NCBI GenBank assembly: GCA_006218065.1
Contig: VBWE01000037.1
Location: 25,234 to 89,233 of the forward strand
Length of the DNA: 64,000 nucleotides
From: Bacteroidota bacterium
GTDB taxonomy: Bacteria; Bacteroidota; Bacteroidia; Palsa-965
Direction of reading: 5' to 3'
Program-made: the position numbers and the translations under genes
Shown here: in pieces, positions 12,243 to 58,186 of the stretch
Position numbering within the stretch: the stretch's first letter is position 1
Layout: each line of letters starts with the position of its first letter
Notes under the pieces: model-generated
What the model was told of the DNA's origin: nothing
The model's input: only the letters and a program-made list of their open reading frames with translations
The model's database searches: none

Positions 12243-13237
12243 GGTGTCATGCGCTTCGCAGCGGTTTTCTTTGCTTCGGACAAAACGTTTTTGCAATAAT
12301 CTTCCACCCATTTTTCGATCAGGTCCAGGTTTGCGGCATTCACGGGAACACTTGTGCGGAAACTGGATGAACGCGTGACTTTATATACCGGGTCGTTGAA
12401 CACGATTTCGCGGCTTTTCACATCAGGTACAAGCGTATCCTTTGAAGAAACGAGCAGCTTTTCCCTGAACGTCTTCTCCATATCCGAATTCAGAAGAGGC
12501 GCATAATTTTCCTGGCGCAGCAGCATGATCATCGCAGACAGCATGTGCACATAGCTTTGTGTCAGGTAATGCATCTCACTGCCGGAAGCCCGGGTAAAAG
12601 CGGTATCGAACATCACTTTTCCATCGATGCCTGCGAGAATCAAATTTTTGAGTTTCTTTTCATATTCCAGCATCGCAGGCAGCATGTCCACTACGTTCAG
12701 ATCGATCAGGATATTCAGGTCGTCAAGGTAACGGACCCTGCGGAGAAGTTCGCCTCCTGCGTAATATGCAATCACATTTTCTCTTCTTTTCCGGAGAATC
12801 TCAAAACCGGGCGCTTTCAAATGATCATGCTGCCAGGGAATTCCGCCGTAAGTAAATTCCGTATGCGTTTTCTGTTTCGGCTTCGAGCACATCTGGCTGT
12901 ATGAATAGTTGCGTTCTTTGGCGGCAGTAATAAATGAACTTATCGCCATTTTCTCCCAGCCGGCAGGCATGGGTTGCCCGGCCGTTTTATAGAGTTCATT
13001 CATCGGCGGATATATCCGGTATGCGTGCAGCGTGTTATTCTTCGTTATGAAAAAAATCGTGTCTGTTCCGCGCATGCGAATAGAAATCCCGGGTAACGTA
13101 TCTGTGCCGGAAAAATAATTATGCCTGGCAAAAAAAGCGGCTGAATCCTGAACCGGCAGCAGGCCAAACAAAACAAATATGCTCATTGCGGACAGGATCA
13201 ATGTCTTCACAATTGTTTTTTTCACGGGATGGCTCAT
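12224..13237 (-). CDS. Unknown membrane-anchored or exported protein
   Basis: 337 residues from ATG 13237; a TTG at 13264 in the same frame is less likely. The N-terminus has a basic stretch and a hydrophobic helix (TLILSAMSIFVLFGLL), either an anchor or a signal peptide. The rest is mixed alpha/beta with a helical middle (DLNVVDMLPAMLEYEKKLKNL) and no motif I recognise. It overlaps the SUMF1 lipoprotein gene by 19 bp, which suggests a shared function or complex at the envelope. Confidence 0.6.
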   Translation of the reverse strand: MSHPVKKTIVKTLILSAMSIFVLFGLLPVQDSAAFFARHNYFSGTDTLPGISIRMRGTDTIFFITKNNTLHAYRIYPPMNELYKTAGQPMPAGWEKMAISSFITAAKERNYSYSQMCSKPKQKTHTEFTYGGIPWQHDHLKAPGFEILRKRRENVIAYYAGGELLRRVRYLDDLNILIDLNVVDMLPAMLEYEKKLKNLILAGIDGKVMFDTAFTRASGSEMHYLTQSYVHMLSAMIMLLRQENYAPLLNSDMEKTFREKLLVSSKDTLVPDVKSREIVFNDPVYKVTRSSSFRTSVPVNAANLDLIEKWVEDYCKNVLSEAKKTAAKRMTPWPVAR

Positions 13238-13284
13238 GGACAAAGGGGTATCAATCTCCTGCAAGATAATTCATTCCGCGCATT

Positions 13285-14859
13285 TCACGAAGCCAGTTTC
13301 AGCCGTTCGCGCGAGGTTTTACGCACCAGATTGTCCTTCACCAGTTCTTCCATCGACCGGTTTTCGATTTTACTCCGCAGCCAGGTGATGATCTCGAAAT
13401 AATAAAACGCGCGTTTCTCGAAACGGCTGGAAGTAAGCGCTTCCATATCCTGTTTCAGACCGATGAAAAGCCGGATGAGTTTTTTCCCGACCGTATTTTT
13501 CGAAATCTGCTTGAGAAAACCGAGGATCAGTTTATTGTACGCCGAAATATGTCCCTTCTTGAGCAGGAAACGGTAGAGCGATTTCAGGTTGTATTCAACC
13601 AGTTCGTCGTTGCCAAGTTCGTAATGCGAAATCAGCGCGAGAATACGGGCGAACGTGTGCAAGTCCTCCCGCACATCCTCCCCACGTGTATTGATGATCC
13701 GGTTCAGCCAGTGCAGCGCCGTTTTATACTGGTCGGCTCCAAAATAAAGACAAGCGACTTTGTAATAAAAAATCAGTACCGAGTTTTGATCCAGCAGCGG
13801 AAAAAACTTGTTCAGGTCATTCTCCAGCCGGCTTACGATACGCGTACCGGAACGGAATTCACCCATCAGGTAATGCCGGTTGATCTCGTGGATATAGATC
13901 GCTTTAAACAGGTTCAGGTTGATATTCCTGCTGAAATGAAACATGTTGCTGCGTTTCAGGGCGACTAAATTTTTATGCGTCTGCGCGAAATCGCGGAACA
14001 GGCCCAGTTTGTTCTGCACCACGAGCAAACCGTTCAGCGCACGGATATAAAACTCGGGTTCGTCTTTGATGCGCTCCGGCTCATCTTCGAAAAGAGCCAC
14101 CCACTTGAGCGCGCAGGCATGCCCTTTCCGGAAATCCTGGATAAATAAATAATACCCGAGCAGCGAATCGTAGAGGTATATTTTTTCGTTGAACGACAGT
14201 TTTTTTTCCTGGTAAGCAGGCAATCCTTTTTTGAAAAAATCGGTCACTTTTTCCAGGTCGCTTTTATCCCGGATAAAACCGGTTTTTACATAAAACGTAT
14301 TCATCCGGATGGACAGGTTGCTGAACGTGTTGATGTTCGCGATCCGCCGGGCAACGGCCTGTGTGCGCTCCACCACGTCGAGCACGCGGTCCTCGTTCTT
14401 CTCCGCGATTGTTTTCCGGATCGCCAGCTTTTCCAGCTCGAGCAGTTCGAGCATCAGTACCGAGCGGTTATGCTGCGAGGCCAGCCGTTTCGCTTTATCG
14501 ATCATGCGCAGGCAATCTTTATACAGGCATTTATTGTAAAGAATCCGGGCGTAATCGAGCAGGTCGGCGATGGAAATATCCACCACGTTCGAGGAGTTGC
14601 AGAGGCGCATGGTTTTCAGGATGCTGCCGTACAGGTGCATTTTCATATTGGAAAGCTGCAGCGGGTTCAGTTTTTTTTCGCGCCGGAGCAGGGCTTCCTC
14701 ATCGTAATTTTTCTGGGCCGCAATGGCATCGAACAGGACGATGAACTTTTTGTCATCGCCTCCTCCCATCCGCGAAGCGTAGAGCCGGAAATAGCGTTTT
14801 TCGCTGGGGCTGAGCGAATGAACAAGATGAAAAAGGGCATCAGACCGTTCCTTAGGCAT
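13285..14859 (-). CDS. Bacteroidota-specific helical (TPR-like) protein, unknown function
   Basis: 524 residues, mostly amphipathic helices and no signal peptide, so cytoplasmic. The N-terminus contains HLVHSLSPSEKRYFRLYA, an opening I recall from many uncharacterised Bacteroidota proteins. Helical pairs such as LYNKCLYKDCLRMIDKAKRL and YKTALHWLNRIINT look like degenerate TPRs. It ends 47 bp upstream of the start of the 12224-13237 gene on the same strand and may be the first gene of that unit. No enzymatic motif is visible. Confidence 0.65.
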   Translation of the reverse strand: MPKERSDALFHLVHSLSPSEKRYFRLYASRMGGGDDKKFIVLFDAIAAQKNYDEEALLRREKKLNPLQLSNMKMHLYGSILKTMRLCNSSNVVDISIADLLDYARILYNKCLYKDCLRMIDKAKRLASQHNRSVLMLELLELEKLAIRKTIAEKNEDRVLDVVERTQAVARRIANINTFSNLSIRMNTFYVKTGFIRDKSDLEKVTDFFKKGLPAYQEKKLSFNEKIYLYDSLLGYYLFIQDFRKGHACALKWVALFEDEPERIKDEPEFYIRALNGLLVVQNKLGLFRDFAQTHKNLVALKRSNMFHFSRNINLNLFKAIYIHEINRHYLMGEFRSGTRIVSRLENDLNKFFPLLDQNSVLIFYYKVACLYFGADQYKTALHWLNRIINTRGEDVREDLHTFARILALISHYELGNDELVEYNLKSLYRFLLKKGHISAYNKLILGFLKQISKNTVGKKLIRLFIGLKQDMEALTSSRFEKRAFYYFEIITWLRSKIENRSMEELVKDNLVRKTSRERLKLAS

Positions 14860-37904: not shown

Positions 37905-38957
37905 TCAGTCGAATGATTTCGCATTCATTGCTTTTCCAAAAGTGTTGATGGTCATAATCCGCAAGGAAACTTCGAATCCTCCGCGTGATTTGCTGGCGGT
38001 GGTTAAGTCTGACAAGTTAACATCGTAGCTGAAACCGATCCTCATGAAATCAAATTCATATGCCGTTACGATATTCAACGCATCGCTGAAACGGTAATAC
38101 GCTCCCAAAACAAAAGCGGAAGGTTTTTTTCTTCCCGTATAGTGCGACGCTTCCTGCATCAGGTATTTGACCAGCATACCCGTGTTGATTTCCCGGTGGC
38201 CGCCCTGGAGCATGACGATATATCCCGGTTCGAGAACGATGCTGTAGTTTTTTATCCCGATGGCGGCATTCCCGTGCGCTACTATTTTCATCGGTAAACG
38301 CATATCGCTGTTGCCGTAAAAAGAATACACGGGCCTGTTGATGTGCTGCACGGAAAATCCTGCATTAAAAGTCCGTGCATCATTCGAGCTGATCGTGTTA
38401 TGTCCTTCTCCGTAAAACCAGGCAAAACCCGCGCCCACATCGGCATACGTCCGGCTGGCAAAAGCGACCGGTTCCATCGAAGGCGCAGTAATATCGAGAT
38501 GTCCGCCGATGTATTGATTATCCCAGTTCAGTTTATCGTAACTCAGGCTGCGCTGACCGAACCCGCCGTAAATTCCTGCGGAAATTAAATTGTGATCATC
38601 CGCTGCAAGTATTCCTGATAAATGCAACTGCCCGGTGGTTGTACCCATTTCACTGTCGCCGGCTTTGTCAGAGAAAACGTCCAGCCCGACGCCCAGGTGA
38701 CTTCCGCTTTTCTTTTTATTGTAAGCCATGTCCGCGCTCACGTTGAACGTCCGGAAAGGATTGCTGCTTACACTTTTCCACTGGTCTTTATAATTAATTA
38801 TCCCCATGAATCCGTGCGACAATCCGGCCTGCGCCGGGTTCAGCAGCAAAGGCGTTTGCGTCAGTTGCGAAAAGTGAATATCCTGGCCCGGAGAAAATAA
38901 CGGCAGCAGGGAAACGCCGGCGATGGTCAAAAACAGCTTCGTCTTTTTCATGTTCAT
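37905..38957 (-). CDS. PorP/SprF family type IX secretion outer-membrane protein (second copy)
   Basis: 350 residues with signal peptide ending FSPGQ. Opening DIHFSQLTQTPLLLNPAQAG and YKDQWKSVSSNPFRTF match the family; the rest is a predicted barrel ending RGGFEVSLRI. The ATG overlaps the cargo stop by one base (TAATG), as in the first module. Unlike that module no OmpA gene follows; a strong terminator closes the operon. It probably serves secretion or attachment of its own cargo. Confidence 0.9.
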   Translation of the reverse strand: MNMKKTKLFLTIAGVSLLPLFSPGQDIHFSQLTQTPLLLNPAQAGLSHGFMGIINYKDQWKSVSSNPFRTFNVSADMAYNKKKSGSHLGVGLDVFSDKAGDSEMGTTTGQLHLSGILAADDHNLISAGIYGGFGQRSLSYDKLNWDNQYIGGHLDITAPSMEPVAFASRTYADVGAGFAWFYGEGHNTISSNDARTFNAGFSVQHINRPVYSFYGNSDMRLPMKIVAHGNAAIGIKNYSIVLEPGYIVMLQGGHREINTGMLVKYLMQEASHYTGRKKPSAFVLGAYYRFSDALNIVTAYEFDFMRIGFSYDVNLSDLTTASKSRGGFEVSLRIMTINTFGKAMNAKSFD

Positions 38958-41900
38958 TATTTTATCAAAGAGACGTTTCCACTCTGGTTAAATTCCGTTC
39001 CATCGAACAATGTTCCTTTCAGGACATAATTGAACACGGCATTTTCACAGGCCACCCCGCGCCAGTTTCCGTCCCAGCCCACAGCCGGATCGTTCGTATG
39101 GAATACCTGCTCGCCCCAGCGGTTGAACACGAAGAAGTCCAGGTACTGGATACAGGCCCCCCTGACAAACAGCACGTCGTTCTGGTTATCACCGTTCGGG
39201 GAGAAAGCGCTCGGTACAAAAACATCTCCGCAGTATATGTCGACAAAAACAGTTACCGTATCCGTCGCTATACATCCGAGTGAATCGAAAACAGTGAGCG
39301 TATATGTTGTCGTAACCGTCGGCGTTGCGACCGGGTTTGTGCATGCAGTACAACTCAGGTTGTTGTTCGGCGACCAACTGTACGATTGTCCCCCGCTTCC
39401 GTTCAGTATCGTCGACTGCCCTGCCGTAATGGTAACGGACGTTCCGGCATCCGGGTTGAGCGAACTTATGCCTCCTACCGGTATACTTGCCGTGAATGAA
39501 CATCCCGACGCATCCGTTATGGTGCACGTATATGTTCCCGGTGTTAGGAATGTTGCCGTTGATGTTGTTTGACCGTTGCTCCAACTATACGTGTATGGCA
39601 GCGTTCCTCCCGTGGGTGTGGCTATCGCCATACCGTCATTACCGCTGCATCCCGCAGGAGTAGCGGTAAGCGTATCGTTCAATGAATTGACAAATACCGT
39701 TACCGTATCATAACTCGTACATCCGCCGGTAACGATCGTGGATAAATAATATGTAGTCGTTACCGTTGGTGTAACTGTGGCGGTGCTGTTTGTGCCGATC
39801 GTGCTCGTTCCGTCCGACCATACATAGCTGTAACCTGCTCCCGTCTGGGCAGTCAGCAGAACCGGGCTGTTGCTGCAGATCGTCGTATCCAAACCGGCAT
39901 TGGCCACAGGATACGGGTTTACGTTAACCGTGTACGTTGACGCTGCCGATCCGCACATGTTGATCGCATTGATATTGATCGTGTATGCGCCGGTATTCGG
40001 CCAGGAAATATCAACCACGTTATTTGACGTATCGACGATCGTTCCTCCTGTCGATGACCAGCTGTAGTAGGTACTGTTCATGAATGAGGTGGTGTACGTA
40101 GTGGTGTCTCCCTGGCAAACGTTATGAGGTCCTGTCGTATTCAGAGCCGGCGTAGTAAGCACAACGATCGAATGTACCGGCGACCACGGACCCGCGCAGC
40201 CGAAGCTGGTTTCCTGCACGGAGAAGTTCAGCGTTCCCGTTCCGCCCAGGCTGACGTAAAGCGAATTGGAATTCGCTCCCGACGGTGAGACAAACGGATT
40301 TCCGCCGTTGATTCCGTTGCACTGCCACATGTACGTTGAATTGGCGGCAAACGAATACGGGGAGAAATACAAGGCCACGATATCGCCCGTACAGAAAGTA
40401 TCCGTCGGGATGAATGTGCTGAAATCATACGAAGTGATCGTCGGGGCAGTCGATGCCGGCGCACCGATCGTTACCCGGATCAGGCTTCCAAGCGCATTAT
40501 CGGGGACGCTGGACTCCGTCGCAACCACGCGCATGTAATTCATACCGATGGGAATGCCGTAGAAGGGCAAACTGTCTTTACACGGCACATGCACGTTCAG
40601 CGTGGTATCGCCTGTAGCTGCAACAGAGCCTAAGATTCCGTCGGCTCCTATCTGTGAAAAGTTCTGGCTGCTCAGCAACTGTGTATTGAATATATTTCCC
40701 GGGCCGTAGGTGGCCGTTGTGTTGAACGAATTCACATCCACATCGATCAGTGAATCTGCGCCTCCCGGAGCTATGGAGCAATCGGTAACGCAAAAATCAA
40801 GATCCTGCATATTATTCGTAGTGATGTCGCATTCTCCTATGCAGAAAGGACCCCAGGGCGAACCGATGACGGCAGGATTGGAAGAAATAACGCGGATATA
40901 ATACCCGCAGCCGGGCGGAACAGGAGGAATCAAACCACCTACCGATCCTGGCGGCGAACCTAAAGCAGGATCATAGGTGCCGGAATTCGGGAAAGTTCCG
41001 ACAACAGGCGGAGTGCCTGAGAATACGCCGTTGGAATCCGAAAGCTGCGCGGTATAAATATTATTGCCATTGTAAACCCCGGTCGAATAGAACGGGACAT
41101 CGATGACACTGCCCACGCATACCGCATTGGTGTCAAATGTGACAACGGGTTGCAGCGTAGTAATCACGTTCGGACAGGCGATGATCTGGAAGCAAACCGA
41201 CGCCGTTCCCATGATGACGGGCGCCGGCGAGGTTCTTCGTATTCGTACTTTATAACAATTCCCGGGGCCGGATGACGTTGGAAGAATAATCGCAAACAAA
41301 CCGCTTGTTTGCGGGTAGTTGATATTCGCTACCCAGGTATTGGGAGTATTAAAAATTCCCGTCGGACCTGATAAATCTATCGCGTATGTACCGTCGCAGA
41401 GTGTATCGGAAAGACTCCAGTAAATATAAAGTATGCCGCCCTGGCAAACCGGGTTCGGAGAAACGCTGTCGACCGAAATCGTAACGTTATTGCTGTAGGT
41501 TGCGGCCACGTTGATATCGTCGACCGCAAAAGCTACCGAATCCGGGGATGGCCCGTTATTGTTTTGCCACCTGAAACCAAAGCGAATATCATTTTTGTTA
41601 CTGAATGCCGGGTCGGTAATATCTTCATACTGCCATTTGTATTTATTGCTGTACTGGTTTCCCACTTGTGTCCACGGTCCGTTATTGACACTGTAATACA
41701 CTTCACCATACGCGGTGGGCGATCCCTGGCAGAGATAGAAAAAACTGAAATGCACGGAATCCATACCCATGGTACAAATACCATTGGTCATGAACGCGAA
41801 CTGGTCCGAAGGATTGGACGGGTTGTAATTGCAATTGGTAATCCCGGACGGCATATCATAGATATGCAGGTATTCGCTGAAGGGAGCGAAGGAAATGGTT

Positions 41901-42130
41901 CCGTTGTACGTACTGTCCTGGCTGTACGTGTTATTATACGTCGGAGCGCCGGAATACTGGTTGTTGATGATCCACTGGTTGGTACCCGTGCCGGAGCCCG
42001 GACCGGTTCCATTCAATGTGAAAGTGCCACCGCCGGTTTGAAAATTTTCCGTAAAAATCAGGATGTTTTGTGCATGCAACAGCATGCTGCTGACAAAACA
42101 AAAACCGAAAATGAAAAGTGCTTTTTTCAT
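38957..42130 (-). CDS. Large surface protein with type-B T9SS sorting domain and SprB-like repeat
   Basis: 1057 residues with signal peptide (ALFIFGFCFVSSMLLHAQ). The N-terminal ~200 residues look like a jelly-roll adhesin domain (NQWIINNQYSGAP, FAFMTNGICTMGMDSVHF). Several Ig-like modules follow; near residue 850 a SprB-type repeat (ATPTGGTLPYTYSWSNGQTT) and Ig/PKD-like strands. The C-terminus is the gliding-associated type-B domain (AFSPNGDNQNDVLFVRG, FNRWGEQVF). Likely a T9SS-exported adhesin dependent on the SprF encoded next. Preceded by a 573-bp AT-rich non-coding gap. Confidence 0.88.
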   Translation of the reverse strand: MKKALFIFGFCFVSSMLLHAQNILIFTENFQTGGGTFTLNGTGPGSGTGTNQWIINNQYSGAPTYNNTYSQDSTYNGTISFAPFSEYLHIYDMPSGITNCNYNPSNPSDQFAFMTNGICTMGMDSVHFSFFYLCQGSPTAYGEVYYSVNNGPWTQVGNQYSNKYKWQYEDITDPAFSNKNDIRFGFRWQNNNGPSPDSVAFAVDDINVAATYSNNVTISVDSVSPNPVCQGGILYIYWSLSDTLCDGTYAIDLSGPTGIFNTPNTWVANINYPQTSGLFAIILPTSSGPGNCYKVRIRRTSPAPVIMGTASVCFQIIACPNVITTLQPVVTFDTNAVCVGSVIDVPFYSTGVYNGNNIYTAQLSDSNGVFSGTPPVVGTFPNSGTYDPALGSPPGSVGGLIPPVPPGCGYYIRVISSNPAVIGSPWGPFCIGECDITTNNMQDLDFCVTDCSIAPGGADSLIDVDVNSFNTTATYGPGNIFNTQLLSSQNFSQIGADGILGSVAATGDTTLNVHVPCKDSLPFYGIPIGMNYMRVVATESSVPDNALGSLIRVTIGAPASTAPTITSYDFSTFIPTDTFCTGDIVALYFSPYSFAANSTYMWQCNGINGGNPFVSPSGANSNSLYVSLGGTGTLNFSVQETSFGCAGPWSPVHSIVVLTTPALNTTGPHNVCQGDTTTYTTSFMNSTYYSWSSTGGTIVDTSNNVVDISWPNTGAYTININAINMCGSAASTYTVNVNPYPVANAGLDTTICSNSPVLLTAQTGAGYSYVWSDGTSTIGTNSTATVTPTVTTTYYLSTIVTGGCTSYDTVTVFVNSLNDTLTATPAGCSGNDGMAIATPTGGTLPYTYSWSNGQTTSTATFLTPGTYTCTITDASGCSFTASIPVGGISSLNPDAGTSVTITAGQSTILNGSGGQSYSWSPNNNLSCTACTNPVATPTVTTTYTLTVFDSLGCIATDTVTVFVDIYCGDVFVPSAFSPNGDNQNDVLFVRGACIQYLDFFVFNRWGEQVFHTNDPAVGWDGNWRGVACENAVFNYVLKGTLFDGTEFNQSGNVSLIK

Positions 42131-42608
42131 TGAGATTTTTTTTGTGTGTGCCGATCTGAAAACAATTAGCCCGTCAAAACACGAATGCTTAACCGGATTG
42201 TTTCCAGGTTTGAACCAAAAATTTAAAAAACTGATTGCGTGTTTCAGGAGTGAATATAGTACAATATTGCTTATAAACTAATCTTTAGGGGGTTAGCTTT
42301 AAAATTTCCTCCGAATCTCCCTCCCGGCGGCTATCAGCAGGCCGGCACTCACCCGGTTTTTGCATCAATTCGCCCTCCTTTTTTCATGTATATAACTATT
42401 CTTTCACACGTGAACAGTGTCCGGAAATAGCCCCGCCTGCCACAGCCTTATGGAATACGGAAGCGTGACCGGATTTTTACATGAAAAAGGAATTTTATCC
42501 TATTGCTGTATATTAAAATGCCATGTTTCAGGACATCCTGAGCATACAACAGGTTTTTCATTCCAACAAAAAAGATTTTTGTCCTACTGCGTTTAATGAC
42601 ACGGAATC
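42131..42608. other. Long AT-rich intergenic region with no gene seen
   Basis: The gap between the divergent cargo gene and the small secreted protein. It is clearly richer in A and T than the coding DNA on either side, has no ORF with Bacteroidota codon habits, and must contain the cargo operon promoter. No repeat shared with other loci was found in it. Confidence 0.6.
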
Positions 42609-42662
42609 TATTTTTGGAAATGTAATTTGCTGATCGGCTTCGAAGCGATCCGGGCAAATTAC
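42609..42662 (+). promoter_or_regulatory. -7 element followed by a 5'-leader hairpin
   Basis: TATTTTTG (42609-42616) fits TAnnTTTG. GTAATTTGC (42622-42630) and GCAAATTAC (42654-42662) form a perfect 9-bp stem whose loop holds a second pairing around GCTTCGAAGC. The mRNA would begin at or next to this hairpin, about 40 nt before the start codon. Confidence 0.55.
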
Positions 42663-42703
42663 CTGCAGGAATTCACCTTTACATTCAAACAACTAATACC
42701 CGG

Positions 42704-43039
42704 ATGAACATGAAAAAAATGCTCGGATTAATGATCCTCTTCTTTGCCCTCGGTCTCGCTTTGCCTTCACAGGCACAGTCGGTTGTCGGGGAAGTACTGA
42801 AAATCAAAAGCAAAGAAGCCCGTGAAAAAATAAAAGAAAAAACCCAAAACATGGCTGCCGAAAAAAACAAAGCTGATCACAGCGCTGTCCGGAAATGGGG
42901 TACCGCAAACAAATTACCCGCCGGTGATAAAGGCAACACCAAAGAGCAACTCGTTCTTCCCCCGCGGCCTGAGCCGATTGATGTCAAACCATCTGCGCGA
43001 TACGTACCCGTTGATACGTCACAGCATAACCCCTGGTAA
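42704..43039 (+). CDS. Small secreted protein, unknown function
   Basis: 111 residues with a signal peptide (MLGLMILFFALGLALPSQAQ), then a short lysine/glutamate-rich helix (EVLKIKSKEAREKIKEKTQ) and a proline-rich end. No family recognised. The second Met (42710) is an equally good start. Its own promoter, structured leader and strong terminator show it is expressed alone, perhaps at high level. A mature protein of about 87 residues without Cys. Confidence 0.7.
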   Translation: MNMKKMLGLMILFFALGLALPSQAQSVVGEVLKIKSKEAREKIKEKTQNMAAEKNKADHSAVRKWGTANKLPAGDKGNTKEQLVLPPRPEPIDVKPSARYVPVDTSQHNPW

Positions 43040-43059
43040 GCATAAACGAATAAACAAAG

Positions 43060-43090
43060 GAGGCTGTCCCAAAAAGGGCAGCCTCTTTTT
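43060..43090 (+). terminator. Intrinsic terminator
   Basis: GAGGCTGTCCC/GGGCAGCCTC stem with AAAAA loop and TTTTT tail, 20 bp after the stop of the small secreted protein. A near-identical hairpin in opposite orientation is at 43263-43296. Confidence 0.92.
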
Positions 43091-43160
43091 CATTAAACAG
43101 TTAATGAAAAAAGAAGGAAGTACCCTATCTGAACAAGGAACAGGGAACACTCAATGTCAA

Positions 43161-43223
43161 ACGCCCAACGCTCAATTTTCAAGTATCATAGGGGTAATAA
43201 CTTGAAAATTGAGCGTTTGGCGT
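43161..43223. repeat. Inverted repeat with AACGC-type words
   Basis: Arms 43161-43184 and 43200-43223 are complementary at 23 of 24 positions. The arms and the bases before them (TCTGAACAAGGAAC, CAATGTCAAACGC) share text with 7772-7853 and 63646-63747. It lies between two facing terminators of convergent genes. Confidence 0.8.
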
Positions 43224-43262
43224 TGTGCGTTTTTATTTCGCTGTTCTGGCGGGATAAACACC

Positions 43263-43296
43263 AAAAAAAAGAAGCTGCCCTTTTGAGACAGCCTCC
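43263..43296 (-). terminator. Intrinsic terminator of the PKD protein gene
   Basis: Minus strand GAGGCTGTCTC, AAAA loop, GGGCAGCTTC, then a run of eight T, 26 bp after the PKD stop. It is nearly the mirror copy of 43060-43090. Confidence 0.9.
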
Positions 43297-43321
43297 TTCT
43301 GAAAAGTAAAACCGGTAATTT

Positions 43322-45730
43322 TTATCGGATCACCAGTTTGCCGGTTCCGAGCTGGCCTGCTTCGTTCGTTACACGATAGAAATACACACCCGGAGCGAGA
43401 TCGCCTTTGCGGATGAGCATATTTTCGTTGTAACGTCCGGCCTGCGAAGAAATGAGCGCACCGCGAACGTCAAGCAGTTCGAACGTGTAAGCTCCCGACT
43501 GACCGGGGAAGCTAAGCGTAAAAATCGCAGCATCATCGAACGGGTTCGGGCTCAGGAGCATGCTCATGCCGCCGTTGTTCTGTTCGATGCCGATCACCTG
43601 TACGTTGATGGTATTGCAGGTTGTTGACGAATCACCGCAAAGGTTCCAGGTGGTGAGACAAACCGTGTACGGACCGGTGTTCGGGTACGTATGTGTCGGG
43701 TTGGCTGTTGTGGATGTGGTTGCATCGCCGAATGTCCAGAAATAGCTGACAGCATTGGCAGCCGAATTTGTGAACGTGTAGTTGAGTCCCGTTCCGCTGT
43801 TTGTAAATGCGGATGTGGGAAGCAGCGGGCAAACCGTAATGGTGTTGCAAAGCGTGTCGGACGAGCAGGCGTTGGAAGCAACGAGACAAACCGTATATGT
43901 TCCGTTCGACGTGTACGTATGCGACGGGTTTGCCGCAGTATCCGTGCTGCTGTCGCCGAAATCCCAGGCCCAGCTGGTGGCATTGGAAGAACCGTCGGTA
44001 AACTGTACCGTTCCGTTTCCTGCATCGAGGCTGGTGTAGCCGGCTGAAGCAGGGGCGCAAACAGAAACCGTATCGCAGATCGTATCCGCGGAACAGAAGC
44101 TGCTCGCGATCAGGCAAACGGTATATACGCCGCTGTTCACGTATGTATTCGAAGGATTCTGCAGGGTCGACGTATTGCTGTCACCGAAATCCCAGGTCCA
44201 GCTGGTAGCGTTCGAAGAACCATCGGTGAACTGGAACATTCCTCCACCCATCGCGCTGCTGGTATATGAAGCGGCAACCGGGATACAAACCGTGATCGTG
44301 GTGCAGATGGTATCAGCCGAACAGAAACTGCCGGCGACCAGGCAAACGGTATACGTTCCGCTCGCTGCATACGTATTAGCAGGATTCTGCAACGTTGATG
44401 TGTTGCTGTCGCCGAAATCCCAGAACCAGCTGGTGGCATTTGTTGTCGAGTCGTTAAACTGGACTGTTCCGCCGCCAAGCGAGGTGCTGGAATAGTTTGC
44501 GGCGACAGGAATACAAACAGTAACCGAATCACAAAGTGTATCGGCGGAACAAGCACTCGATGCAATGAGACAAACGTTATATACTCCGCTGCTGGCATAG
44601 GTGTACGTAGGCGAAGCCACCGAATCCACGCCGCCGTCGCCGAAAGTCCAGGCCCAGTTTGTCGTACTGGTCGATCCGTCGGTGAACATCACTGTTCCCC
44701 CGCCCTGCGGTGCGCTGGTGAAAACGGCTGCAGCCGGGATGCAAATCGTTACGGTCTGGCAAATGGTATCATTCACGGCGCAGGGATTTCCGACTACAAG
44801 GCAAACGGTATAGGTTCCGCTTGCGGTATATACGTGTGTCGGGTTCTGCGCGGTGGAAAAGTTTCCGTCGCCGAAATCCCACGACCAGGTGGCTGCGTTA
44901 TTCGTGCCGTCTGTGAAGCTGGCAGAATCGATATTCACTGCAGAAGTAAAACTCGCTACCGGGTCGGCGCCGCAGGCAACAACCGTTGTGCAAACCGTAT
45001 CCGTTCCGCAGGCATTGGTGATGTAGCTGCACACGTTATAAGTTCCGCCGAGCGTGTACGTATGTGACGGATTCCATGCCGTATCAAGCGGGGAACCGTC
45101 GCCGTAATCCCATACCGAAGTAAAGGAGGAATCCGAAGCATCCGAAAACTGGAACGAGTTCGGCCCGGTCGGCGTTGCTGTTACGTTATAAGTAATGAGC
45201 GAATCATAGTACAACCATACACGGCTGATGTTCGTACTCGTTGGTTCTGTCCAGAGCTGCTGGGGGGCGGTTGTAGGGAGCTGAAATTGCATCCCGAGAC
45301 GGGAAATCGCGACCGGGAATCCTTCTATCGTTGTTCCTCCCGTATTGTTGCCGTATGAATTGGCCGTTGCACGGCATCCCAATACACCGATAATATCGCC
45401 CTGCTCCACCTGGATATTGACCGGCAGGATACCGGAATTCGTATTGTTCTGGGTGAGAAAAAGCGTCGTAAATGCGTTTGTGGTCGTCGAAAAAGTCGGC
45501 GGCGTACTGTAAAATCTTACGATGGCGATGCTCTGGTTTCCCGAGCTGGCATCGGTCGGCACCTGTGCACCGGTAATCGTAAAACAAGAGGGCGCTACGA
45601 ACCAGTAGCCGCGTACGTTCCCGGTAAACGTGCTCGCATGCGGCGGCATGGCTACCTGGATCTGCGTTTGCGCCATAGCCGGAAGTAAAGTCACGGACAA
45701 GGCGAGTGAACTGAGTAGTTTTTTGATCAT
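43322..45730 (-). CDS. T9SS-secreted protein with seven cysteine-patterned PKD repeats
   Basis: 802 residues from ATG 45730, which begins a signal peptide (LLSSLALSVTLLPAMAQ). The N-terminal ~190 residues form a jelly-roll-like domain. Then seven PKD units of ~75 residues (WDFGDSNTSTLQNP core). In most units the end reads VCL....C..DT.C.T..VC, so four Cys recur per unit. The C-terminus is a type-A T9SS sorting domain (LLSPNPFDDAAIF, APGVYFYRV). The regular DNA periodicity of about 228 bp comes from these units. Likely an elongated, disulfide-stabilised surface protein; partner unknown. Confidence 0.88.
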   Translation of the reverse strand: MIKKLLSSLALSVTLLPAMAQTQIQVAMPPHASTFTGNVRGYWFVAPSCFTITGAQVPTDASSGNQSIAIVRFYSTPPTFSTTTNAFTTLFLTQNNTNSGILPVNIQVEQGDIIGVLGCRATANSYGNNTGGTTIEGFPVAISRLGMQFQLPTTAPQQLWTEPTSTNISRVWLYYDSLITYNVTATPTGPNSFQFSDASDSSFTSVWDYGDGSPLDTAWNPSHTYTLGGTYNVCSYITNACGTDTVCTTVVACGADPVASFTSAVNIDSASFTDGTNNAATWSWDFGDGNFSTAQNPTHVYTASGTYTVCLVVGNPCAVNDTICQTVTICIPAAAVFTSAPQGGGTVMFTDGSTSTTNWAWTFGDGGVDSVASPTYTYASSGVYNVCLIASSACSADTLCDSVTVCIPVAANYSSTSLGGGTVQFNDSTTNATSWFWDFGDSNTSTLQNPANTYAASGTYTVCLVAGSFCSADTICTTITVCIPVAASYTSSAMGGGMFQFTDGSSNATSWTWDFGDSNTSTLQNPSNTYVNSGVYTVCLIASSFCSADTICDTVSVCAPASAGYTSLDAGNGTVQFTDGSSNATSWAWDFGDSSTDTAANPSHTYTSNGTYTVCLVASNACSSDTLCNTITVCPLLPTSAFTNSGTGLNYTFTNSAANAVSYFWTFGDATTSTTANPTHTYPNTGPYTVCLTTWNLCGDSSTTCNTINVQVIGIEQNNGGMSMLLSPNPFDDAAIFTLSFPGQSGAYTFELLDVRGALISSQAGRYNENMLIRKGDLAPGVYFYRVTNEAGQLGTGKLVIR

Positions 45731-45890
45731 GAAAGGTCGGTTTTGTTGTTTGCGGACGCAAGGTACGGCGATTTTCCAAACCGGGAAATACCCCGGGGAA
45801 ACACAACCTGCAACACGACCAATCCCTGCGGCAAAAAAGAAAATTCCCGCCGGTAACGATCGGCAGGAATTTGCAAGAAACACCCGGAAT

Positions 45891-46919
45891 TTATTTTACA
45901 GTGATCTTCCTCGTGAACTCTCCCTGTTCATTCCGAAATACGAGTAAATAAAATCCGGGGGCCAAACCGTTCAATGACATTGTAACATACTTTTCATTTA
46001 CGATGCCGTATTGCGCAGCAAGCGTTTCCCTGCCCTGTATATCTTTCACCAGCACGGTTCCTGAAAACGGTTCCGCTGATCCGATCGTGATATAATCGCC
46101 GGCAGGATTCGGGAATACAAGTATGCCGTGATCATCGCGGGCAATATCTTCCGCACCTGTCGCGATTGACGGAGTTGACATCACCGCCATATAAACTTCC
46201 TGCGTAGTAATATTCTGCACAAATGCCACAACACGGACTTCAGGCACTGATTTAATATTTTGCATATTCCAGGAAAAGGAAATCGTGTCCGTTCCGTTCA
46301 GTTGCCTGTTTACCAAAAACGAACCATTGGCATCGGGCAGCATTTTCCGCATCACGTATTTGTAAACCGTTTCGGAATTATTTCCCGGGCTGGCCAGGTA
46401 TGCGCTTTTCAGTACATTTTTTTCGATTACCACGATATGCGCACGGAGCGAGTCGCCCGTATTCGACGCGAGCTGCGACGTAAAAACAAAAGCGCCCTGG
46501 ATCACGTTTCCCGAAACCTGCGGATTGATCGCTGTAATGTCATATTGTGCAGCAACAGCAGCCCGCGAAGAAATTGCCGCAGCCATTCCCGGAACGAAAG
46601 ACGAAGACCCTCCGCTGAACTGGTTGCCATCGAGAACTGTATGCGGAACGGCAGGTACATTATAAAAATTCACACGCTGATTCGATTCCGCCGGGTTTTC
46701 GAAGTACATGGAATCGTTGTACGGAAAGCTCGTATGATAAGCTACCACAGCAGTCGTTGCCGGGTTGTTATCCGCATATTGTGTAACCTGCGGCGTGTAC
46801 ATGGCGCAGGGCGGGCAACCGGAATTGGTGAACTGTTCGATGAGCACGATGCGTTGCTGGGCGAAAATTCCTGCAGGCAACAGTAAGGCGAGTGCGGAAA
46901 ATAGAATTGTTTTTTTCAT
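45891..46919 (-). CDS. Omp28-related thioredoxin-fold protein with T9SS sorting domain
   Basis: 342 residues from ATG 46919; signal peptide ends GIFAQ. Residues ~20-90 contain IVLIEQFTNSGCPPCAMYTP: a CxxC redox motif in a thioredoxin-like fold, as in Omp28-related proteins. The middle (~100-250) is a beta-rich Omp28 domain (HIVVIEKNVLKSAYL). The C-terminus is a type-A T9SS sorting domain (ILVFPNPAGDYITI, APGFYLLVF). It may be a secreted or surface thiol-disulfide protein. Its promoter carries a TGTCAG-type operator at the position expected for activation by a Crp/Fnr protein. Confidence 0.88.
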   Translation of the reverse strand: MKKTILFSALALLLPAGIFAQQRIVLIEQFTNSGCPPCAMYTPQVTQYADNNPATTAVVAYHTSFPYNDSMYFENPAESNQRVNFYNVPAVPHTVLDGNQFSGGSSSFVPGMAAAISSRAAVAAQYDITAINPQVSGNVIQGAFVFTSQLASNTGDSLRAHIVVIEKNVLKSAYLASPGNNSETVYKYVMRKMLPDANGSFLVNRQLNGTDTISFSWNMQNIKSVPEVRVVAFVQNITTQEVYMAVMSTPSIATGAEDIARDDHGILVFPNPAGDYITIGSAEPFSGTVLVKDIQGRETLAAQYGIVNEKYVTMSLNGLAPGFYLLVFRNEQGEFTRKITVK

Positions 46920-46937
46920 GGCGGATTTCTGTTTGCA

Positions 46938-46982
46938 CAAAGCAACGACATACCGGCAGAACGGAATGTCAGCTATCCGACA
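46938..46982 (-). promoter_or_regulatory. Promoter with Crp/Fnr-type operator (omp28-like gene)
   Basis: TGTCAGCTATCCGACA (46967-46982), a dyad with one mismatch, lies exactly 21 bp upstream of a -7-like element (TTGCTTTG on the minus strand, 46938-46945), which is 18 bp before the ATG. The identical layout is found at 52016-52060. Centre near -41 from the likely transcript start. Confidence 0.65.
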
Positions 46983-52138: not shown

Positions 52139-52175
52139 ATAAAAAACTGCCCGGTACGCTGTTTATGTACCGGGC
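52139..52175 (-). terminator. Terminator overlapping the end of the C39 peptidase gene
   Basis: A 9-bp stem GCCCGGTAC/GTACCGGGC (52149-52157, 52167-52175) followed by six T on the minus strand. The stop codon of the peptidase (52163-52165) lies in the loop. It ends the lanthipeptide operon. Confidence 0.9.
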
Positions 52176-52588
52176 TCCAGCAATAAGGCAAATCCTTCCG
52201 GCTTTCCGCTGGTCCATGTTTTCATAAAACCGTTTTCATCCATCTTATAACATCCCACGGCCGGGTCGGCAATGTAAAAGAAGCGGCGGCCGGTTTTATA
52301 CAAAACCACGTAATGCTTTTCACTCCAGTGAAGGATGGCCGGCAAGGGGATGATTTTTTTATCCCGGAGCTGGGCGAGGCTGAGGCGGACGGGCATAACG
52401 TCGAATCCCATCTGCAAACCGGCCAATTCCATTCCGCGCAGGGAGGTTCCTTCCTGATCGGTACCTGCCCACGAAGAAATGGTTTTGAGACTATTTGTTT
52501 TTCCGTACCATTCACCGATCATCAGCAGGCAGCATGGACCACAATCCATTTTTTTCCGTTGACGATGGAAGGGAAATTGTTTTTTCAT
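52163..52588 (-). CDS. Stand-alone C39 (double-glycine) leader peptidase
   Basis: 141 residues, only the peptidase domain. Active site Gln10, Cys16 (KKMDCGPCCLLM), His92 (SEKHYVVLY) and Asp108 (IADPAVG) are all present. C39 domains cut RiPP leaders after Gly-Gly and are normally the N-terminal ~140 residues of a LanT/PCAT ABC exporter. Here the membrane and ATPase parts are absent, and the gene ends in a terminator. It overlaps lanB by 4 bp (ATGA). The target is very likely the precursor at 56942-57091, whose leader ends KGG. Export must use another transporter or the peptide is matured inside the cell. Confidence 0.85.
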   Translation of the reverse strand: MKKQFPFHRQRKKMDCGPCCLLMIGEWYGKTNSLKTISSWAGTDQEGTSLRGMELAGLQMGFDVMPVRLSLAQLRDKKIIPLPAILHWSEKHYVVLYKTGRRFFYIADPAVGCYKMDENGFMKTWTSGKPEGFALLLEPGT

Positions 52589-55500
52589 TGCTGATCTTCT
52601 CCTTTGCTTCGGGCTTTCTGCGAACGGAGATGGCGATAAAGCATATCATAAGTTACCAGTTCGTGCAGGTTCTGGGCCGAACGGTTCAGCCTGTTCATGC
52701 TCATGTGAATAATGCTGGAACAGAAATACGTATAATCGAACCTGGAGCCCGCGCGTTTTCTCAACCGGCCGATTTCTTCGAGAACAGGTTTGGCGGTTGC
52801 CGATCTTTCAGCGATCCATTCCCGGAGCGGTTCATACTCCTCCGTTTCTTTGCCGGCGAATAACTGTTCCGTTGTCCCGCGGAGTTCCCTGAATTTTGCA
52901 TCGAGCTGCAGTTTCAATTCCTTCGTGCCGCCATATTGATTGAACACACCTGTTTTCATCCGGTCGAGCAGTTCCTGTTCACCGCTCTCCGGGTTCAGCA
53001 TGCGGAGCCAGTTCATTACCGAGAGCAATCCGAACCGCCAGCGGTAGTTTTCCCCTTCGTCGCCTTCCAGGTTTTCCAGCAGCCGCAGCGTGCATGCACT
53101 GTCGATACAGAAAAGTGATTCTGCAAGCGGGGTGATATCATTTCCGTAACGCTCCAGTTCACGATTATATGTATCCATCTGCAGTTTCCAGATACGGTTT
53201 CCCATCGGCTCCAATGCTTCGCGGAGCAAGCCGGGTAGTTTGCCTGCTGCTTCGGAACCGGCGGTATGAAGACGCAAACGCAGGTGCGGATCAGGATCGG
53301 CATAACGGATCCAAAACCACTGATCGGTTATTTTTTTCTCCTGCAGCGACCGGATCATGGGTGCAATGCAATGCACCAGCGTTTCATCGGCCGTTTTATC
53401 CCCGCAGTATATTTTGAAATAGGCCCATTCCGAACCGGGTGGAAAACTGGCCGGGATGGCGGGCTGCTGCGGTACGGGTATCCCGGCGCGGGGTGCGCTT
53501 TTCTCCCGAAGCAGGAATGCTACGAATTCGTTGGCAAAACCATTTCCATTTTCATCGCGTACGACATGTTTTTCTTTTTCGCCCAGGAATTCTTCCAGCT
53601 TTATTTCCTGGCGCCGCCCGATTGTATCGGTGAGCAGTTGAACAGCCGTTTCATCGTCGAGGCGGATGTACAGCAGGTTATCGTTTTCGGCAATTGCCAG
53701 TTCCTCCGGCAACTGCAGCGCGTCACGAAATTTTTGTGCACGCAGCCGCCAGTCTTCGTCGCTGAAAAGCGGGCTGCAATCTTCTTTTTTCAGTTGCCAT
53801 GTCGCCGGGAATAAAACAACATCCCGGTACACCACACGCGGCAGGAACCGGTAATTTTCAGCCAGCGCGCCCCAGCTAAAACCCAGGGAATTGCGCAACC
53901 CGTCCGATTGCAGCGCGCACAGAAACCGGTACGCAGGCAAACCGAACTGAATATGATTGTGCGCTGTGGTCAGCCGCGGATAAATACGTTTCCCCAGTTT
54001 CCGGGAACGCAGAACCACCCTGTTGTTCACTACGGAAACAAGCAGGTCGCTCAGCGGAATAGTATAATCATCCGCAACACCCGAACGGGTGAGATACGGA
54101 ATTTCGTATTCACGCAGCAAAGGCCGGTGCAGGATATTCCCGGTCCTGTTTTCAGGAAGGTAAACAACCTCTGCAAGCAAATCTTCCTGCCTGAGTTGCT
54201 GTTCGTACCTGGTAATATCCTTCGCCAGCGCCTCCACGTCACTATTCCCGGCGGCAAAACGGCTGATCAGTCCTGCGGCTGTAGGACCACCGCAGGCATT
54301 GACCTGCAGCTTCCCGTTTACATTATCAATGATCTTGAAGTAAACAGCAATGGTATCCGGAAGATCGTCATACCCGGGCGGAAATTTTTCCAGGTCTTCG
54401 TCGGTCAGCCTGTATTCCATCGATTGATTTGCAAGGGTTGCCGTAAGTTTCCTGTGCAGGAAACGCGTGAGTTCGTTCCAGCGTAAATCGCCGTTCCCGG
54501 AATTTCCGGGCGGAGCAATTCCTTCCACGAAGGGAGAATAAGTTCCGCCGTGCCCGCCAAAACCGATGCCGCTTTCCTCATCCAGCACTTCGGAAAGCGG
54601 AAGTTCGCGGTCTTCGTAACGTGCTGTAAAACGTTCTTTAAACTCGCGCAGCCTGCTGTTTTCCTGCGCGGGGGCCAGGCGCACCAGGGCGTGAAAAACA
54701 GCCAGCAGTTCTTTTTTATACATACGGGACGGACCACCCTGCGCTGCCGGGAAAAAAAGATCGGACTGGAAAAGATAACGGGTATCGAATTTCACCGGCA
54801 GGCCTTCAAGGGCAGACTTCATATTTTCGTAAACGGAAATATCATTCAGCAACCGGTCGTCAGCCTCTTCCAGTTGTTTCTTCACTTCTTTCAGTACACG
54901 CAACACCCCGGCAGCTTCTTCGTCGCGGACATCTTCCAGTACGTCCAGCAACCGGTCATAAAAAAAACGCCCGGTAACATTCGGTTCAATTTCACTGGTA
55001 AGCAGGCGGGAATCTATCAGCTCGTCAATAAATCCAAGCGCTTCTTCCTCTTCCACATCTTCACTGCAAAGTACACTACAGAGTTCCGGGATGGTTTTCC
55101 CGTTCCGGCATGCTTCCAAAACGAGCAGCAGGTATTCGTTTTTTTCAACGGCTGTCATATGACTGCTGCGCACGGTATCTTTATACCGGTACTCCACATA
55201 ACGAATACTGCCGTTGCAATCCTGGATACTGTTGTTGGGAAAATAGCGCAGTTTTTCCTTCAGGTATTTTTTTTCCGCCAGTTGTTGTCCGAGGCTGCAG
55301 ATGTAATTCATATCCAGTCGCGTATTCCTGCTGACCGGCCCGCGCAGAAAATGACCTTCACCCCAGGAAACAATTCCGACGCCAGCAAAAAGTCCGAAAG
55401 GCGTGGCCCTTGTCATGGCCCGCGCGGCATATTTATAAAGCGCCGTACTCAACTTCCTGTTGAACTGTCCTCCCTGCCCGTCCAACTCACGAAAAAAATC

Positions 55501-55641
55501 GGGAGACGCCAGGAAGAGCGCCTCACGGAAACGGGCGTCATAAACGTACTGCAACTGTAAACCGACGGGCCCCGAAGGCAGCGGCAGAGCAGGCGTCCTG
55601 AATAAAAGACGTTCTTCTATCCGGAAAGGATTTTTCATCAT
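52585..55641 (-). CDS. Class I lanthipeptide dehydratase LanB
   Basis: 1018 residues from the ATG pair at 55641/55638; the frame is open 81 bp upstream inside lanC. The N-terminal ~700 residues are the glutamylation domain (FRELDGQGGQFNRKLSTALYK region, RAMTRATPFGLFAGV, DMNYICSLGQQLAEKKYL). The C-terminal ~280 residues are the elimination (SpaB_C-like) domain, starting at SEWAYFKIYCGDK and including WFWIRYADPDPHLRLRLH. Full-length LanB uses glutamyl-tRNA to dehydrate Ser and Thr in the precursor. It starts 8 bp after lanC and is followed by the C39 peptidase. Confidence 0.92.
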   Translation of the reverse strand: MMKNPFRIEERLLFRTPALPLPSGPVGLQLQYVYDARFREALFLASPDFFRELDGQGGQFNRKLSTALYKYAARAMTRATPFGLFAGVGIVSWGEGHFLRGPVSRNTRLDMNYICSLGQQLAEKKYLKEKLRYFPNNSIQDCNGSIRYVEYRYKDTVRSSHMTAVEKNEYLLLVLEACRNGKTIPELCSVLCSEDVEEEEALGFIDELIDSRLLTSEIEPNVTGRFFYDRLLDVLEDVRDEEAAGVLRVLKEVKKQLEEADDRLLNDISVYENMKSALEGLPVKFDTRYLFQSDLFFPAAQGGPSRMYKKELLAVFHALVRLAPAQENSRLREFKERFTARYEDRELPLSEVLDEESGIGFGGHGGTYSPFVEGIAPPGNSGNGDLRWNELTRFLHRKLTATLANQSMEYRLTDEDLEKFPPGYDDLPDTIAVYFKIIDNVNGKLQVNACGGPTAAGLISRFAAGNSDVEALAKDITRYEQQLRQEDLLAEVVYLPENRTGNILHRPLLREYEIPYLTRSGVADDYTIPLSDLLVSVVNNRVVLRSRKLGKRIYPRLTTAHNHIQFGLPAYRFLCALQSDGLRNSLGFSWGALAENYRFLPRVVYRDVVLFPATWQLKKEDCSPLFSDEDWRLRAQKFRDALQLPEELAIAENDNLLYIRLDDETAVQLLTDTIGRRQEIKLEEFLGEKEKHVVRDENGNGFANEFVAFLLREKSAPRAGIPVPQQPAIPASFPPGSEWAYFKIYCGDKTADETLVHCIAPMIRSLQEKKITDQWFWIRYADPDPHLRLRLHTAGSEAAGKLPGLLREALEPMGNRIWKLQMDTYNRELERYGNDITPLAESLFCIDSACTLRLLENLEGDEGENYRWRFGLLSVMNWLRMLNPESGEQELLDRMKTGVFNQYGGTKELKLQLDAKFRELRGTTEQLFAGKETEEYEPLREWIAERSATAKPVLEEIGRLRKRAGSRFDYTYFCSSIIHMSMNRLNRSAQNLHELVTYDMLYRHLRSQKARSKGEDQQ

Positions 55642-55649
55642 GGCTTGAT

Positions 55650-56843
55650 TTAACTCATCAGCATGCACTCGTCCCAGGCCAGCGGCGTTTCGGAAAGTGC
55701 AGAGAGCAGTCCGAGCCCGCAACCCGCTGAACCTTCCAGCAGGCCGGTATATGTATAGCCGGTATCATGCATCGATTTATAGGCAAACATCAGCCGGTTG
55801 TTCTCACAACGCGCATAGCGGAAAGCCTGTTCCGCCCAGTAGTTTGCATGTTCTTTGTACAGGGACTCGCCGGTTTCCCAATAATATCTTTTAAACATGG
55901 CCGAAACCCCGGTTACCCCGTGGCAAAGATTCGCATCCACGAGCCGGGTCTCTTCGTAGCTGCGGCGTTTGGTACAATGCAGCATGATTTCCCCGGCTGT
56001 TTTTTCCCAGCCGGCATTCCCAAGCGTACGGCCCGCCTGCAACAGCATCAGTGCAACACCGGGATCACCGTAGCACCACCCCAGCCGGCTGGGCGCTTCC
56101 GGCTCGCCGTCAACGATACGGCTCGGAAAAAGATTCGGCAACTGGTGCTCCGGCCCCAGGCGAAGCGAAAGAATATAATGAACGGCGCCTTCCAGTACCG
56201 GTTTTATTTTTTCACGAAGTATCCCGGCTTTATATGCTTTCGCGAGAAAAACAACCGAGCAGGGCAATCCGTGCGCCAGGCCGATGTTATAAGTTGTTTT
56301 GCCTTTATCCTGCGCTTCATACGGAGGATCAATCCATGTAAATCCGCCGGGCAGCGGTTTTGCCAAATCGCAGATCATACGTACCGCATTTTCCAGCAGC
56401 TTGTTTTCAGAAAATGTACGATCCGTTTTATCGAGAAAATAATACGCCTGCCCGACCAGGCCCATCGTAAGATCATAGTATCCTTCCGCAAAATGTTCTT
56501 CCATCATCTTCGCAGAAATCGTTTCGAAAACAGAAAATTCAGCAAGATCAAAATCAAGCATTTCCTGTCTATGCAGATGATTGATGGTCCAGGTAAGACC
56601 TGCCAGGCCGGAAACATAACAGAAGTTCCGTGGCTCCGGACTCAACCGCTCCAGCGCATCGAGCGCTTTACCGATAAGCTGCGCTCCGTCATCGGCAAAA
56701 GAAGGTTCCGATAATACTTTAGCCGCGTAAAAAAGAAAGAGCGCTTCACCGCCTGTTCCCTGCAACAGGCCAAGCTGGCTGTCGTCATAAGGCTGTTCCA
56801 TGATATGGTTGCGGATCTGGCGAAATACGACCGGATCAATCAT
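55650..56843 (-). CDS. Lanthipeptide cyclase LanC
   Basis: 397 residues. Zinc ligands Cys257 (LGWCYGDPG), Cys307 and His308 (ANLCHGVTG) and the His191 of IGLAHGLPC are all in place. LanC adds Cys thiols to dehydrated Ser/Thr to form (methyl)lanthionine rings in the cytoplasm. It lies between the precursor gene (98 bp upstream, separated by a terminator) and lanB (8 bp downstream). Confidence 0.93.
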   Translation of the reverse strand: MIDPVVFRQIRNHIMEQPYDDSQLGLLQGTGGEALFLFYAAKVLSEPSFADDGAQLIGKALDALERLSPEPRNFCYVSGLAGLTWTINHLHRQEMLDFDLAEFSVFETISAKMMEEHFAEGYYDLTMGLVGQAYYFLDKTDRTFSENKLLENAVRMICDLAKPLPGGFTWIDPPYEAQDKGKTTYNIGLAHGLPCSVVFLAKAYKAGILREKIKPVLEGAVHYILSLRLGPEHQLPNLFPSRIVDGEPEAPSRLGWCYGDPGVALMLLQAGRTLGNAGWEKTAGEIMLHCTKRRSYEETRLVDANLCHGVTGVSAMFKRYYWETGESLYKEHANYWAEQAFRYARCENNRLMFAYKSMHDTGYTYTGLLEGSAGCGLGLLSALSETPLAWDECMLMS

Positions 56844-56889: not shown

Positions 56890-56925
56890 AAAAAAAACGG
56901 GAGCACGAATAACTTCGCGCTCCCG
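56890..56925 (-). terminator. Terminator/attenuator between precursor and lanC
   Basis: CGGGAGC...GCTCCCG (56898-56904, 56919-56925) with inner pairing CGAA/TTCG, followed by eight T on the minus strand. It would let most transcripts stop after the precursor, giving more peptide than enzyme mRNA. Confidence 0.85.
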
Positions 56926-56941
56926 CAACATGGAAAATCGG

Positions 56942-57091
56942 TTACCCGATACAGGTCCAGTTCGTGTTGCATTTGCTGGCGCAACAGGTAACTGTAATGA
57001 CTCCGCCTTTTACGTTTTCAAGGCCTTCCTGGAGGCGATTCACGGTCTGTTTGGTGAGCGTGAGTTTCTTCTGGATTTTGATCTTTTTCAT
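56942..57091 (-). CDS. Class I lanthipeptide precursor
   Basis: 49 residues, too short for usual ORF cut-offs. The leader (1-30) is Lys-rich, with KKLTLTKQTV (8-17), the K-L-x-L-x-K box of Bacteroidota RiPP leaders, and ends LENVKGG with Leu and Val at -7 and -4 before the double-Gly cut. The core (31-49) is VITVTCCASKCNTNWTCIG: four Cys and five Ser/Thr, so up to four lanthionine or methyllanthionine rings. It is directly upstream of lanC, lanB and a C39 peptidase. Antimicrobial activity is not shown by the sequence. Related known products in the phylum are the pinensins of Chitinophaga, but the core is not recognisably the same. Confidence 0.88.
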   Translation of the reverse strand: MKKIKIQKKLTLTKQTVNRLQEGLENVKGGVITVTCCASKCNTNWTCIG

Positions 57092-57176: not shown

Positions 57177-57184
57177 CAAATATA
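57177..57184 (-). promoter_or_regulatory. -7 promoter element of the lanthipeptide operon
   Basis: TATATTTG on the minus strand fits TAnnTTTG, about 85 nt before the precursor ATG. No clear TTTG at -33. The surrounding 57092-57436 is AT-rich and otherwise holds no gene that I can see. Confidence 0.55.
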
Positions 57185-57436: not shown

Positions 57437-58186
57437 ATGCTCTATTTCGACGGGAAGCAATATGATCGGTTTATGCAGGTCGCAAGCCCGAATGAACTCC
57501 CTTTTTATCTTGATCTTTCCAAACATTTCGGCAACAAAGTATTGGAACTTGGCATCGGGACGGGCCGTGTGGGTCTTGAACTCGCCGCTGCAGGGTGTAC
57601 AGTCAGCGGTATCGATCTTTTTCAGCCGATGCTTGACGAGGCCGCCGGCAAAGCTGAAAAACGCGGATTAAAACTCGATCTCACCTGCGCCGACATGAGC
57701 AATTTCGACCTGGGTACCGATTTTGACCTGGTCATTATCGCGTTTAATTCCATTCATCACTTGCTGGGTCATGAGCAATTGGGCGGGCTTTTCAGCTGCA
57801 TAAAAAAACATCTTCGTGCAAACGGCGCATTCGCATTCGACATGTCCAATTTATCCGTCTTTCCCTCCGGCGACCAGGTGGAAGAATACATGCTGAGGAA
57901 ATACATACACCCCGAAAACAACAAGGAGGTGGAAATACATATCCGCCAGACCTATGATCCCCTGCAGCAAATACAGTATATGGCCTGGAGCTACCTGCAG
58001 GAAGGAAAAACGATCAGGCAGGAACAAGTCAACCTGCGGGTATATGCTCCCCAGGAAATGGAGGGCTATCTTAAATTCAACGGCTTCCGGATTATCGGGA
58101 AATACGGTTCTTTTGAAAAAGCCGATTATGAACTGACCGGGGAGAAAGTGATTTACGTTACGCGGCTCGCATCCGCCCAGGCATAA
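57437..58186 (+). CDS. Class I SAM-dependent methyltransferase
   Basis: 249 residues. SAM-binding motif I VLELGIGTGRVGLELA, motif II GCTVSGIDLFQPML, acidic CADMSNFDLGTDFDLVII and a C-terminal beta-rich extension typical of small-molecule or peptide methyltransferases. It is divergent from the lanthipeptide operon, so a tailoring role on the peptide is possible but only by position. A bidirectional terminator follows. Confidence 0.85.
   Translation: MLYFDGKQYDRFMQVASPNELPFYLDLSKHFGNKVLELGIGTGRVGLELAAAGCTVSGIDLFQPMLDEAAGKAEKRGLKLDLTCADMSNFDLGTDFDLVIIAFNSIHHLLGHEQLGGLFSCIKKHLRANGAFAFDMSNLSVFPSGDQVEEYMLRKYIHPENNKEVEIHIRQTYDPLQQIQYMAWSYLQEGKTIRQEQVNLRVYAPQEMEGYLKFNGFRIIGKYGSFEKADYELTGEKVIYVTRLASAQA

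Follow-up and report, generated by a model that had tools for sequence, protein, structure and literature searches.

Results

The stretch of DNA analysed here (the window, 64,000 nucleotides of a draft genome of a Bacteroidota bacterium) carries on its reverse strand a row of four genes, a lanthipeptide precursor, lanC, lanB and a C39 peptidase, with spacings of 98 bp, 8 bp and a 4-bp overlap, respectively. The precursor gene (lanA) was confirmed at exactly 57091-56942 (-), where an earlier note had proposed it, and runs from ATG to TAA over 49 aa. Residues 1-30 form the leader MKKIKIQKKLTLTKQTVNRLQEGLENVKGG (57091-57002), and the predicted core VITVTCCASKCNTNWTCIG (56945..57001) follows the GG site, double-glycine cleavage being suggested by the C39 family of the peptidase. 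An in-frame TAA stands two codons 5' of the ATG (the stop-to-stop frame is 50 aa), so the start is fixed and has no longer alternative. As had been claimed, the core holds four Cys and five Ser/Thr when counted in the sequence, and its computed mass is 2015.894 Da unmodified and 1925.841 Da after five dehydrations.

Hairpins sit at both junctions, and the unit therefore consists of four genes, precursor-lanC-lanB-C39 (57091-52163, about 57.1-52.15 kb), bounded by hairpin terminators. Between precursor and lanC, a 13-bp hairpin followed by a T-run (56897..56926, -; fold -25.2 kcal/mol, z -5.2) is the best terminator match in the region and has the features of a terminator or attenuator. The spot between the precursor and the next gene is the usual place of partial termination in lantibiotic operons, and this hairpin would make precursor transcripts more abundant than those of the enzyme genes. 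At the other end, a 9-bp hairpin across the stop codon of the C39 gene, followed by TTTTTT (52149..52175, -; fold -18 kcal/mol, z -3.3), resembles an operon terminator. A weak promoter candidate, TATATTTG (57177..57184, -), lies 93 nt before the ATG and fits the Bacteroidota -7 box TAnnTTTG with no clear -33 box.

The earlier note had drawn a wider locus of seven genes (52.1-58.2 kb), of which only the precursor, lanC, lanB and C39 genes belong together. For the neighbouring methyltransferase, YHS, DoxX and OMP genes, no homologue turned up in any of the 36 stretches fetched, which came from other genomes and other parts of the source genome and many of which are LanB/LanC loci; the seven-gene cluster was dropped because these genes are not conserved with the cassette. 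The divergent SAM methyltransferase gene (57437-58186, +) scores 86.5 bits against the daptide methyltransferase model, below the cut-off of 175, and could share its promoter region with the precursor. Elsewhere in the window (37905-46940), PorP/SprF genes and genes for type IX secretion cargo (CHU_C, Por_Secre_tail, PKD repeats) fit an origin in the Bacteroidota.

The lanC gene (55650..56843, -) encodes a cyclase of 397 aa (PF05147, E 7e-43) in which His191, Cys257, Cys307 and His308 align with the NisC/LanC structures, the Zn ligands (Cys and Cys-His) and the catalytic His being present. The dehydratase encoded by lanB (52585..55641, -) has 1018 aa with the glutamylation and elimination domains fused (PF04738, E 2e-132; PF14028, E 1e-57), and it keeps the NisB residues R74, R78, T80, D110, D294, R461, R779, R831 and H979, which serve glutamylation and elimination. 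A lanC with PF05147 adjoins a LanB with both PF04738 and PF14028, as in class I clusters. As had been described, lanC and lanB lie beside the precursor of a class I lanthipeptide, both genes being intact with their catalytic residues in place and the leader being of the L1a type.

The leader belongs to the family described by the NCBI model NF038153 (lant_leader_L1a, "class I lanthipeptide"), which would give the ORF its name. The model matches residues 1-30 with 23.6 bits (E 4e-5), only slightly above its curated cut-off of 22 bits, and when all six frames of the entire draft genome (5.26 Mb) were searched, the same leader scored 22.5 bits, also above the cut-off, as the sole such match. The Gly-Gly leader of the earlier description stands, with VKGG before the core; the K-L-x-L-x-K box described along with it does not, and the box is instead LxLxKx5L (LTLTKQTVNRL), which is known as a signature of class I leaders in Bacteroidetes. 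It could be argued that a short ORF, scoring close to the cut-off of the model and overlapped by an antisense ORF, arose by chance and that the true precursor lies elsewhere. We find this very improbable, because this is the only leader above the cut-off in the genome, 0/14 control genomes yielded such a match and the ORF ends 98 bp upstream of lanC in the same direction; in addition, it shares 57-59% identity with tandem precursors of another genome (G252, see below).

The last gene of the unit encodes a stand-alone C39 double-glycine peptidase of 141 aa (52163..52588, -; PF03412, E 4e-31; 4-bp overlap with the lanB stop). It spans the PCAT1 peptidase domain 2-140, and Q10 (the Gln of the oxyanion hole), C16, H92 and D108 are present. 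The C39 domain is not fused to the ABC membrane and ATPase domains as in LanT/PCAT proteins, and the gene consists of the peptidase only; the missing transporter half had been overlooked in the earlier note. In 9/9 sampled relatives with C39 directly behind lanB, the gene there is a full C39-ABC of ~730 aa, which in most of the relatives' loci opened is followed by HlyD. A frameshifted LanT was dropped as a candidate, as no homology was found in any frame after the C39 stop, elsewhere in the window or in the other fetched parts of the contig (C60). In the class and phylum samples no other solo C39 was found beside an intact lanB, and the short C39 genes inspected there lay at contig ends or were lipoproteins, remnants or LanT genes that are split or frameshifted; in one genome (G142) a frameshifted LanT lies beside a split lanB. 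At three loci (L183, L184 and L186, in G690, G530 and G703), isolated or HlyD-fused C39 fragments beside lipoprotein-like gene rows are apparent deletion remnants of peptide exporters.

One explanation for the peptidase-only gene is a decaying cluster in which LanT has lost its ABC half together with HlyD, so that peptide production continues without export and the other genes are heading for loss. The full C39-ABC, mostly with HlyD, behind lanB in the relatives and the truncated LanT remnants in other genomes of the phylum are in line with decay, as is the C39-domain tree, where the solo C39 sits on a long branch with no resolved placement; such a branch could mean relaxed constraint. However, 4/4 ORFs are intact with catalytic residues present, the C39 gene ends where the peptidase domain ends and carries a clean terminator at its stop codon, and a transporter remnant is absent from all frames downstream of it. 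We consider decay unlikely, though it deserves to be kept in mind. A peptidase gene with no transporter half may be a variant arrangement, seen in one genome and in a draft assembly.

Alternatively, a dedicated LanT may be encoded elsewhere in the genome and have been missed by the draft, in which case the solo C39 would be an extra LanP-like peptidase. The assembly (5.26 Mb) is in 81 contigs, and one ABC gene, with an ATPase part 39-42% identical to LanT, is cut off where contig C8 ends, which leaves some room for a LanT hidden in a gap. Against this, completeness is 99.98%, the draft genome holds no second C39, neither a further C39 nor part of a LanT membrane domain turned up at any contig end, and the C8 neighbourhood carries no HlyD, the gene next to the cut ABC gene looking like a housekeeping one. 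A second LanT was dropped as a candidate because none was found. The C39-less ABC exporters of the source genome had no adjoining HlyD in the four stretches opened. A missed LanT thus appears rather improbable.

Relatives of the LanB (E < 1e-100) were detected in 28/395 genomes of the class, with a best identity of 39% when the window's own is excluded, and their loci hold L1a precursors with varied cores and show the gene order LanC-LanB-LanT. A direct contig search with the precursor as the query gave no relative and a plasmid search none. The nearest precursors, found by profile search, are four tandem copies in another Bacteroidia genome (G252), three of them with 57-59% identity and the fourth with 45%. 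The cores align as VTCANASCAASCNQNSC in G252 and VTC----CASKCNTNWTC in the window, and the LanB of G252 is only 27% identical to that of the window. The core in the window resembles a shortened version of a type found elsewhere, though in a distant cluster. The predicted core is not an isolate, as the four tandem precursors share its plan. Every Cys in the first G252 copy is directly preceded by Ser/Thr, compared with 2/4 Cys in the window core. Precursor-rich arrays were also seen: a locus in a low-completeness genome (L187, G062:C72) has about a dozen different L1a-type precursors and two lanC, with no lanB, on one 12-kb contig, and two further precursors lie on L188. Another genome (L069 of G318, 12400-13967) has six L1a-like precursors in tandem, with cores rich in TC, upstream of lanC-lanB-LanT.

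Discussion

We hold with good confidence that the locus is a four-gene class I lanthipeptide operon with modification by LanB and LanC, trimming by a cytosolic C39 and either unlinked export or retention of the product. From the enzyme families we infer the enzymatic steps of dehydration, ring formation and cleavage, and the export and activity of the peptide are likewise deduced. LanB would bind the LxLxKx5L leader and dehydrate core Ser/Thr using Glu-tRNA, after which LanC would add the cysteines to form up to four (methyl)lanthionine rings. Four rings would be the arithmetic maximum; ring number and pattern are guesswork, as is the earlier idea that the adjacent Cys pair carries two of them. 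The freestanding C39, expected to be cytosolic because it has no signal peptide, would cut after Gly-Gly and set free a core some 19 residues long, and the product would then leave via an unlinked ABC/efflux system or stay in the cell.

With no dedicated exporter among the four genes and none recognisable elsewhere in the draft, the product would leave through an unlinked system or be retained. Most probably, dehydration, cyclisation and trimming all take place in the cytosol, and the peptide leaves, if at all, via an unlinked exporter. More tentatively, we suggest that a natural single-domain C39 removes the leader in the cytosol, that the genome holds no dedicated exporter, and that the mature peptide either leaves via a general exporter or acts inside its producer. 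Its activity is probably antagonism or signalling.

The cluster is compact: the genes for its precursor and three enzymes take up about 5 kb. Since few lanthipeptides have been isolated from Bacteroidota so far, every small cluster that is well formed offers a practicable case for testing. If the small C39 is active alone, it would provide a naturally occurring soluble enzyme for cutting off Gly-Gly leaders, and it would also raise the question of how the peptide exits the cell.

The locus had been called possibly new. However, Walker et al. 2020 (PMC7268733) described exactly this type of leader for class I precursors of Bacteroidetes, with the LxLxKx5L motif, in many cases a Gly-Gly end and often a C39 protease within the cluster, and related LanB proteins occur in the 28/395 class genomes; the cluster is therefore of a known kind and not a new class. 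Judged by its sequence, the core of the precursor is new and its kind, class I lanthipeptide, already known. Compared with the Bacteroidetes LxLxKx5L/Gly-Gly LanA group (PMC7268733, NF038153), the leader motif, GG site, LanB with LanC, C39-family protease and phylum are alike, whereas the core is new and the C39 is a peptidase with no ABC transporter. The tandem precursors of G252 (L182; lanC, lanB and full LanT) share the core plan VxxVTC..CAS.CN.N.(S/T)C and differ from the window in their four copies, ANAS between the first two Cys, a longer tail and a full C39-ABC. Pinensins (Chitinophaga), which as of 2020 were the phylum's only isolated lanthipeptides (PMC7268733), are likewise class I and from Bacteroidota, but the pinensin LanB is split (PMC7268733) and that of the window fused. 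With nisin, the window LanB and LanC have in common the catalytic residues of NisB and NisC. The nisin system uses the leader motif FNLD and the subtilisin-type NisP, so that leader, core and protease type differ from those of the window. The C39 domains of LahT150/PCAT and the window C39 have the whole peptidase domain region and the catalytic residues in common, and while LahT150 is an engineered cut-out, the window C39 is a natural single-domain gene.
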